NCBI GenBank assembly: GCA_029339195.1
Contig: JAPTJF010000265.1
Coordinates: forward strand, 1 to 64,000
Length of the DNA: 64,000 nucleotides
From: Micractinium sp. NFX-FRZ
Lineage: Eukaryota > Chlorophyta > Trebouxiophyceae > Chlorellales > Chlorellaceae
Direction of reading: 5' to 3'
In this document: in pieces, positions 10,021 through 63,732 of the stretch
Layout of the letters: the number at the start of each line of letters is the position of its first letter
Numbering within the stretch: position 1 is the stretch's first letter
Position numbers and translations under genes: made by a program
The notes under the pieces: model-generated
Told to the model about the DNA's origin: nothing
Databases searched by the model: none
What the model saw: only the letters and a program-made list of their open reading frames with translations

Positions 10021-13000
10021 TCACTTCATGTCGTACTCCTCCTTCAGCTTCCTCACAAAAGTGGGCAGGCCCTGCAGCTGCGGCTTGCCTGCAGCAGTGG
10101 CCGACACGCCGGGGCTGCCCCCGCCGCTGCCGCCCGCAGCCTCTCCCTCTGGCTTGGGTGGCGCCGCCAGGCGTGCCATGCTGGCGATGCGGCTCATGGA
10201 GCCTGAGGCCGCGCCCTCCAGCCCCGCCTCCACCACCATGCCCCGGAACGTGCTCTCCCGCCGCCCCATCAACCCCGGCACGCTGTCAAATTCCTTGACC
10301 ACGCCGCCCTCCATCACAAGCACCTGAGCGGAGGGCAGGGGCGCAGGGGGAGGGGTGAGGCGGGGGCGAGGGGAGCGGGGGCAGAGGGGAGCAGGGGGCG
10401 GGGGCGGGGGGAGCGGGGGCAGAGGGGAGCAGGGAGACGGGGAGGCAGGGGGGGGGTGCAGGGGAGGGACACGCGACGGGGAGGCGGCAGCAGGTCGTAG
10501 GCGTCGGAGCCCAGGACGGGCTGAGCAGCAACGTGCCAGCTTGCCTGGAGGCGAGCACAGCTGTTTCCACCATGCTGGCTGGCCGGCCACCCGGGTGGGG
10601 CACAGTCACCGACACCCTCAACCGTACACCAGATCATCTACGCCGGCTTCCTGCCCTCCCAATCATCATCTCCAGCACTGCCCTGCCCCAACGCTGGCTG
10701 GCTAGCGCCCCATCCCACCCATTCCCACCGCCCTCCCCACACATCACCCCCACACCCCACGCCGCCGCACCTTGCTCGAGTCGAGGATTGTGTTGATGCG
10801 GTGGGCAATGGTGAGCACGGTGCAGTTCTTGAACTCGCGGCGGATGGTCTTCTGGATGAGCGAGTCGGTCTCGCTGTCGACGCTGCAGAAAACACAGGGC
10901 GGGACAGCAACAGGTGAGGGGCACATGGGAGGGCAGGGGCGGCGCAGAGCAGGCGTGAAGGGCGAGTTGGCACGCTGTGCAGGCTGCCGGAACCAGAGTG
11001 TGGCAGGGGGGAGGGCGGGGGGCACCGGGCATGAGGGGGCCAGAGCACAGTAGGGCGAAAATTCGATAGAGCGGCGAGGCGGACGGGGGAGGGCGGGGGG
11101 CGGATACATGGAGAGATGTAGGCAGGCAGGAGGCGCAGGTGGGATGTGAGACAGGTGATGGTGCTGCTCACAGCAAGCCTCCAGGCTTCCCTCTCACAAC
11201 ACACAATCTCTCACAACGCACAATCTGCTGCCCGCTCTCTCACACACAATTCCCCCCCCCCCCAGTCCCTCACACGCCCCAACCTGTTTCAAGGTATGCA
11301 CACTTCATAATGCCCACAGCTACCTCCCCCCGCACCCACCCCGCACCCACCTGGCGGTTGCCTCGTCGGCCACCAGCACGCGAGGCTGGCGCAGGAGGGC
11401 GCGCGCCACGCACAGCAGCTGGCGCTGGCCCACGCTGAAGTTCTCGCCTGCAGCCAGCGGGGGGGGAGGGGAGGTGGGGGTCAGCATCGGGTGGCAGGCC
11501 AAGCACTCATTGGCTGGAGTGGTAAACGCATATGGGAAAGCCAATTCTGGGTAGCACAAGGCGTGGGGCAGCCCTGGCAGGGCGGTTCAGGCAAGCCAAG
11601 CAACCCATGCAGCGTGACCGCACAGCCATGCAGCACACCCAGGCACGCAGCCAGCCAGCACAGGCACCTATCACGGGCACCCTGCACAGGCCAGCTAGCA
11701 AGCCAGGCCCCCCAGCTCGCGTGCTCACCATTCTCCGCCACGCGCGCCGACAGCGCCTCTGGCAGCCCCGCCACCACCTCCTTGAGCGCCACGTGCCCCA
11801 GGGCGTCCCACAGCTCGGCATCGCTGTGCCGGCTGTACGGGTCCAGGTTGGTGCGCACGCTGCCGCTGAACAGCACCGGGTCCTGCGGTGGCAGCACACA
11901 AGGAGGATGGGAGCAGATGAGCAGGCGCAGGGAAGGGCTGCAGGTGGGTGCGCATGCTACCGCCGGCCAGCACCTGGCCCTGGTGGCAGCGGGTGGGGTA
12001 GGGAGGGGGAGGAAGCGATGAGCACCTGGCCCGGACTGGCACGAGGCAGCAGGCGGCAGAGGTGGTGGGGCAGCAGGGATCGGGGCAGGCGGTGAGGGGA
12101 GGGGCACACGCAGGGTGCCGGCAGAGAAGCAGGAGGAGGCCAGCAGGTGCAGCTGCTGGCTGCATTGCCGTGAACTGTCCACCCCTCCCGCCAGTCCCGC
12201 CCTGCCAGGTGCCAGCAAGCGCGGCCTTCCTGCAGGTGCCCCACGATGCCCACCTGTGGGATGGCAGCGATGCGCCCCCGCACGTCGTCCAGCCCCAGGG
12301 TCAGCAGGTTGTGCCCATCCAGCACAATGGACCCCTGGTACGGCTCCACCAGCCGGAACAGGGTCACAATCAGGCTCGACTTGCCGCTGCCTGTGCGCCC
12401 CACGATGCCAATCTTCTCGCCGGGCAGGACAGTGAAGGAGACGCCTGCTGGGGGAGGGGGCCAGGGGGCAGGGGGAGGGGGAGTGAGAGAGGGCCAGCGT
12501 GAGAGTGGGGCGGGGGTGGGCGAGGGAAGGGAGTGCGGGCCGGAGCCTGACGAGGGCAGGGACAGCTGGGGGGCACAAGCGACAAGGCTGCCTTGTACGG
12601 CGCCACACAAACCAGCTTCCCACAGCGCCCCGCCCCATGGCCCCCGCGCTGCCCGGCAGCCTCACAGAGCACTGGCCCACAAGCAGGCCACAGCAGGGGG
12701 CAGCAGGCGCCAGCACGCACCCCTCAGCACGGGCTCCAGCTCCGGCCTGTAGCGCATCCACACATCCTGGTACTCAATCATCCCCTGCTGCGGCCACTCC
12801 GGCTCCGGCTCCGCCTCGGGCTTCTTGGCGGCCGCCTCCTGGGGCAGGCTCCAGTAGTGCACCAGGCGCTCAACTGCACACAGGGGCGGGGGGCGGGCGG
12901 GCGAGCGGGGAGGGGTGAGCAGGGCAGGCGAATGCAAGGAACGGGCAAGAGGCCTGCTGGGCAGGGGCACGGCGCTGTGGTCAGGGTCGGGCCGGCAAAC

Positions 13001-63732: not shown

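Follow-up and report, generated by a model that had tools for sequence, protein, structure and literature searches.

Decayed copies of neighbouring exon ends in introns of a Micractinium genome

Why do introns at this locus resemble the exons beside them? A reading made from the sequence alone had claimed that introns across the window (the whole analysed stretch of 64,000 bases, C265:1-64000) carry same-strand, diverged copies of adjacent exons. These were thought to record either intron birth by tandem duplication of coding stretches containing AGGT, or intron growth by repeated local duplication. The origin of intron sequence is an old question, and footprints of intron gain or extension are easily lost.

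The assembly comprises 66,065,352 bases in 838 contigs. Our sample consists of six regions, 314 kb of the 66 Mb assembly (about 0.5% of the genome). Genes were predicted, with no existing annotation, by a purpose-built gene finder combining splice-site matrices, codon usage and an intron model. It was seeded with the hand-read RtcB gene and then self-trained on 254 kb; it tends to merge genes. The self-trained model yields the splice consensus CAG/GTGxG at donors and TGCAG/G at acceptors, and its predicted reading frames are backed by the finding of 0 internal stops in 29,062 codons. In the six sampled regions, GC stands in place of GT at about 13% of the donors that the model predicts.

A first test, on earlier gene models, used 371 of 481 introns. 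After the gene models had been tightened, 493 of 605 predicted introns were scored in the main test; those with a flanking exon shorter than 24 bases, a length outside 60-1200 bases or a donor other than GT were dropped. Each intron was scored against 200 other exon ends, which gives an empirical p. Matches at p<=0.01 were reduced from 61 to 60 by dropping scores below 65, and to a strict set of 45 by dropping scores below 85 or starts more than 10 bases from the junction. An entropy screen for low complexity, which passed 0-13 per side, is too strict for long alignments and was set aside.

In the window, residues 3-454 of the 454 of RtcB align ungapped to an RtcB homologue (PDB 7p3b), which we take to be the human protein, across all 11 junctions. 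The gene model is therefore safe and the copies are intronic. The four copies counted earlier in this gene were recovered in four introns at p<=0.005, as were the two in the ABC transporter gene and the one in the nucleoplasmin-like gene (Table 1). Cases were paired by gene and number, because the sequence-only reading gave counts per gene without coordinates for its best cases. Computed identities of these seven copies (0.69-0.86 over 35-76 bases) are in line with the earlier hand counts. Only the eighth named case, in AP-4 sigma, fell short of significance; its spacing of about 96 bases fits that of real copies.

Table 1. RtcB gene, exon-end copies and one sub-threshold resemblance in the window
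Feature	Positions	Strand	Intron	Match and remarks
Copy of start of ABC-transporter exon 11729-11882, offset 97	11936..11977	-	11883-12253	33/42 identical, p 0.005
Copy of end of ABC-transporter exon 20037-20228, offset 123	19914..19958	-	19590-20036	35/45 identical, p 0.005
RtcB gene, 12 exons read by hand	47104..52032	+		Open frame; PF01139; PDB homologue 859 bits
Copy of start of RtcB exon 47974-48084, 96 bases upstream	47888..47934	+	47691-47973	37/46 identical (60-base query), p 0.005
Copy of last 55 bases of RtcB exon 47974-48084, 110 downstream	48141..48194	+	48085-48349	37/54 identical, p 0.005; donor GT retained at its end
Copy of start of RtcB exon 50152-50319, offset ~160	49992..50047	+	49693-50151	45/56 identical (60-base query), 0.80 over 76 extended, p 0.005; acceptor AG lost
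Copy of start of RtcB exon 50715-50883, offset 113	50602..50646	+	50320-50714	34/43 identical, p 0.005; acceptor AG lost
Weaker copy of start of HSP20 exon 53787-53870, offset 264	53524..53565	+	53503-53786	32/40 identical, p 0.005; PF00011; score 76, so outside strict set
Copy of end of nucleoplasmin-like exon 57953-58043, offset 175	57782..57818	-	57651-57952	30/35 identical, p 0.005; PF17800
Sub-threshold resemblance to start of clathrin-adaptor small chain exon 60128-60310	60032..60073	+		Score 66, p 0.10, not significant; PF01217

Seven fainter echoes had been proposed at protein level. The one in HSP20 near 53530 passes; the other six are not significant, namely those in NIPA near 34806 (p 0.55 and 0.41), 35545 (p 0.10) and 36520 (p 0.09), in the F-box/LysM gene near 38360 (p 0.17), in the P5B ATPase near 33420 (p 0.40 and 0.44) and in HSP20 near 54808 (p 0.52). 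Gene names follow Pfam (ABC_tran, NIPA, nucleoplasmin-like, clathrin adaptor small chain, HSP20, E1-E2 ATPase); "AP-4", "P5B" and "ABCC" are finer names taken over from the sequence-only reading, and support here is at Pfam level. The F-box/LysM protein has no Pfam match at E<=0.001.

Several further features of these genes and of the window were observed. A second, older RtcB paralogue in the same genome (C74:68219-77547, 55-58% protein identity) has an intron copy of its own (C74:73602-73897). Window positions 41949-43142, which lie among tandem repeats of 21-63 bases, find 66-86% matches in several contigs (C535, C16, C9, C176 and others) and represent either a dispersed repeat or a repetitive coding region. 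A CACAG-like simple repeat in an intron at 39103-39210 has about 30 matching places in other contigs, which calls for caution in repeat searches. No Rfam match at gathering thresholds was found in the window. The motif TGTAA at predicted gene ends is uninformative about the lineage (15 of 47 sense, 16 of 47 antisense).

Similarity to the adjacent exon was then counted over all six regions. Among the 493 GT-AG introns, sense matches at p<=0.01 number 32 to the next exon and 29 to the previous one, with about 5 expected for each; either kind occurs in 61 introns (about 10 expected). At the same threshold, the next-but-one exon gave 8 of 440 and 4 of 443, antisense comparison 3 and 3, and random exons 4 and 5 of 493. 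In the first test, with 371 introns and score >=100, there were 14 matches to the next exon and 12 to the previous one; the corresponding counts were 2 and 0 with non-adjacent exons, 0 and 1 in antisense, and 1 and 0 after the introns had been shuffled. The excess persists in three other scorings (20-32 sense vs 0-7 antisense per side). At least one copy occurs in 29 of 50 gene units. Of the intron sides, 6.2% carry a copy, with a range of 4.3-8.4% when genes are bootstrapped, as against 0.6% in antisense. By region, matches occur in 8 of 100 introns of the window block (74 kb), 9 of 52 in C74, 15 of 72 in C1, 9 of 87 in C2, 14 of 78 in C3 and 6 of 104 in C100. The last, which lay outside training, is the weakest (about 2 expected) and contributes 1 of the strict 45.

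A blastn comparison made without gene models returned 36 same-strand and 0 inverted repeats (offsets 50-200, score >=25). At score >=22 and within 1000 bases there are 71 same-strand rows. Classed by the earlier gene models, 33 of these pair an exon-containing stretch with an intron; the other 38 are 28 intron-intron rows (many from few arrays), 9 exon-exon rows and 1 intergenic row. Decayed ends of neighbouring exons are present in roughly one tenth of the sampled introns. The comparison proposed by the sequence-only reading, run here on the sampled regions, puts adjacent sense similarity above the shuffled, antisense and non-adjacent controls, and its central observation holds well above chance, also outside the window.

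The strict set is composed of 23 next-exon and 22 previous-exon copies, all of them in direct orientation. Alignments span 21-88 bases of exon from the junction and in 26 of 45 cases begin exactly at it. Offsets lie between 75 and 241 with a median of 116, as against 201 under uniform placement in the same introns, and 31 copies have an offset below 140. At the homologous place, 9 of 18 and 10 of 19 copies retain the splice dinucleotide (19 of 37 by exact count; 11 of 18 and 11 of 19 with small shifts allowed). Background is 5%, and the exact count is near the 64% that decay of 20% per base would leave. Copy-bearing introns are longer (395 vs 238 bases, p 7e-12); this is supportive but not proof, because long introns offer more room for copies. 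No strict-set intron has both a next-exon and a previous-exon copy (about 1 expected), and a third copy is detectable in 6 of 42 at p<=0.02 (0.8 expected).

Local copies are not peculiar to exon ends. When exon ends served as probes, 27 and 25 of 311 had a copy (3.1 expected), and in the same test intron-internal probes gave 5 and 8 of 158 (1.6 expected each). Predicted CDS starts and stops had copies at p<=0.01 in 0 of 33 cases each, these ends being the weakest part of the gene models. A gapless 88-base tandem duplication, 91% identical and of the same size as the junction-crossing units, was seen within a predicted intron (C100:25472-25647, L031).

Differences between strict copies and their exons are evenly spread over codon positions (0.208, 0.201 and 0.181); coding selection therefore does not act on the copies. 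Since exon third positions add no measurable change, silent sites seem to change slowly relative to introns. A tandem paralogue pair in C100 agrees: fourfold sites differ at 14% (35/250), while several introns, judged by eye, could not be soundly aligned. Copy/exon differences bear no signature of deamination, and repeat-induced mutation (RIP)-like or CpG decay was rejected (188 transitions in 428 differences; CpG 0.221 vs 0.193). Only 4 of 45 copies are >=90% identical, whereas steady birth in simulation predicts a third to half.

Paralogues give two further glimpses of history. In a pair on C3 (17380-25153 and 25592-32944), the copy in intron 21356-21730 scores 94 against its own exon and 61 against the paralogue's, and the corresponding intron of the paralogue has no copy (score 48); this single case suggests that the copy arose after the gene duplication. 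The tandem paralogues L031 and L032 (C100:20197-24751 and C100:32484-37035) are 96% identical in protein. Their introns 3 and 6 are 100% identical, pointing to patchy gene conversion that includes introns, and several other introns are hardly alignable.

What could have left such copies? In GC-rich, low-complexity introns one must reckon with chance matches, through common local composition or low complexity, and with artefacts of assembly. Several of the 61 matches are indeed expected to be chance, since about 5 of 493 per side arise in that way at p<=0.01. However, the antisense, next-but-one and random-exon controls contradict this reading, the complete lack of inverted repeats speaks against it, and divergence of about 20% would be unlike misassembly; we consider it highly improbable. 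It is hardly credible either that the copies serve as exons, whether alternative or mutually exclusive, which the gene models missed. Retained splice dinucleotides would suit such exons, but third-position differences are not in excess, the RtcB protein is complete without the copies, and the alignments reach only a short way from one exon end. Intron birth was the more specific proposal of the sequence-only reading: each copy-bearing intron would have been born by tandem duplication of an AGGT-containing coding stretch, the copy being the parental exon. Adjacent-exon copies do occur inside introns, and the copy in intron C2:48990-49140, of 151 bases, begins 18 bases past the donor. An intron born in this way resembles the next exon start at its own start and the previous exon end at its own end. 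This signature is absent. Intron starts match next exon starts in 5 of 490 cases and intron ends match previous exon ends in 8 of 488 at p<=0.01, with 4.9 expected for each (for the latter, 22 at p<=0.05 with 24.4 expected). Moreover, 1 of the 45 strict copies starts <=30 bases from the far splice site, and in about half of the cases (19 of 37) the copy still has an acceptor AG or donor GT of its own. AGGT birth was thus rejected as a general account, and as the history of each copy-bearing intron it is very unlikely.

We favour, with a probability of about two in three, the reading that direct duplications over short distances, on the scale of about 100 bases, crossed a splice junction, and that the copies are what is left of them, stranded in existing introns and decaying. 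After such a duplication, splicing would keep using one junction and the protein would remain unchanged. The second exon end, together with its splice site, would be stranded within the existing intron, which lengthens. The stranded copy would then decay without selection, while the exon would stay put and preserve the comparison. The basis is observed: same strand, adjacent exon only, anchoring at the junction, inclusion of the splice site, neutral decay and longer introns. From this we infer the order of events and the nature of the event itself, a tandem duplication that might have come from the repair of staggered breaks by fill-in. Anchoring is explained: if the duplicated stretch contains the junction, an exon end can come to lie in the intron with no effect on the protein. 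The intron-internal local copies favour general local duplication, with exons as its better preserved witnesses. The record looks like intron lengthening by swallowed exon ends, not birth of new introns. Growth by local duplication, the other suggestion of the sequence-only reading, fits the anchoring, the distance of about 116 bases, the longer introns and the third copies, but not well in the plain form in which a whole unit is duplicated in tandem and then decays neutrally at a steady rate.

That plain form was rejected after two simulations, which fitted poorly both to the age spectrum and to the intron side. Farther than 15-25 bases into the intron, next-exon copies show weak similarity (p 0.002-0.06 by test and control) and none was detected for previous-exon copies; some younger cases do show it (C3:6907-7354, C1:31473-31997). 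Simulated full tandem units have a mean score of 0.8-2.4 per base, compared with 0.50 observed and 0.45 in controls, and the harshest indel setting alone approaches the observed value, for older copies (median 0.47). The lack of extra change at exon third positions also counts against the favoured mechanism, which needs silent sites slower than introns, as does the rarity of young copies. So do the CDS ends without copies, unreliable as these predicted ends are, and the weaker signal in C100. Part of the deficit of intron-side similarity and of young copies could be due to rapid turnover of low-complexity introns by indels, to a burst in the past or to collapse of young copies in assembly.

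Alternatively, copying may be bound to the junction, an exon end with a few intron bases being placed about 100 bases off with unrelated sequence between. Ungapped own-flank similarity exceeds control mainly at intron positions 4-6 (0.50 vs 0.32; 0.61 vs 0.40) and then fades, in a test that loses power fast where indels are common, and introns do decay with many indels. A simulation of short copies (20 intron bases plus exon end) gives 0.3-0.4 at skip 25, nearer to the observed 0.50 than full units, but overshoots beside the junction, where at skip 0 it gives about 1.0-1.7 and the observed value is 0.72. The absence of copies from all 66 CDS ends at p<=0.01 would agree with junction-bound copying; intron-side similarity in some younger cases and the intron-internal local copies disagree. 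On balance we hold it to be unlikely. A rather improbable suggestion is that junctions are copying hot spots, from which exon end and splice site are thrown about 100 bases in, and that introns are continually rebuilt. It is in line with the mostly missing intron half, the CDS ends without copies and the drop of similarity after about six intron bases, three features that plain tandem duplication does not explain. Copies derived from mRNA, joining both exons, were rejected as well: the 5 candidates are of low complexity or weak by eye.

With the exon as preserved reference, a history of junction-crossing duplication would be readable in about one tenth of the sampled introns. A single genome would then allow study of intron growth rates, of how long duplicated splice sites persist and of how far the splicing machinery tolerates them. 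The copies are also a warning that exon-like sequence beside an exon may pass for an alternative exon.

Several known systems are comparable. Intron gain by tandem duplication of AGGT segments was reportedly described by Rogers in 1989, Gao and Lynch in 2009 and Hellsten in 2011. The available part of one report gives cases of this type in Drosophila (PMC2891723). As in our copies, duplicated exonic sequence becomes intron and the protein is unchanged, but the defining geometry of AGGT gain is absent here. Small tandem duplications are said to have been ascribed to fill-in of staggered breaks by Vaughn and Bennetzen in 2014. Such duplications, with overhangs of tens of bases, appear in the accessible text of PMC8355091. 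They are direct and local like ours and may be linked to them; those in that text are fresh and induced with adjacent copies, whereas here the intron half is mostly undetectable (PMC8355091).

Introners, as far as the text at hand describes them, are families of similar copies in many genes (PMC9860276). They too add sequence to genes as intron genome-wide; in contrast, the present copies match their own neighbouring exon. A genome search with window positions 47000-52100 (RtcB introns) found only itself and one exon stretch of a paralogue; a search with 34001-54000 found further matches at 39100-39210 (simple sequence) and about 41950-43140. Introners are therefore unsupported in the searched stretches (34001-54000, including 47000-52100). 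Direct repeats at or near intron-exon borders, in the consulted portion of PMC11782384, measure 4-30 bases (mean 11.4) and are thus shorter than the present copies, which comprise 21-88 exon bases and lie deep inside the intron. A non-exhaustive literature search, drawing on partial texts, found no genome-wide report of decayed exon ends in introns; PMC11782384 was the nearest. In potato RdRp, according to the part of the report available, tandem duplication across an intron-exon boundary created a new intron (PMC4974935), whereas in about a tenth of the introns sampled here a surplus exon end sits within an intron that already existed, at one or the other of its ends. Among the systems as described in these texts, such boundary-spanning tandem duplication (PMC4974935) is the closest known kind, and the geometry of the present copies leaves room for something specific to the junction.
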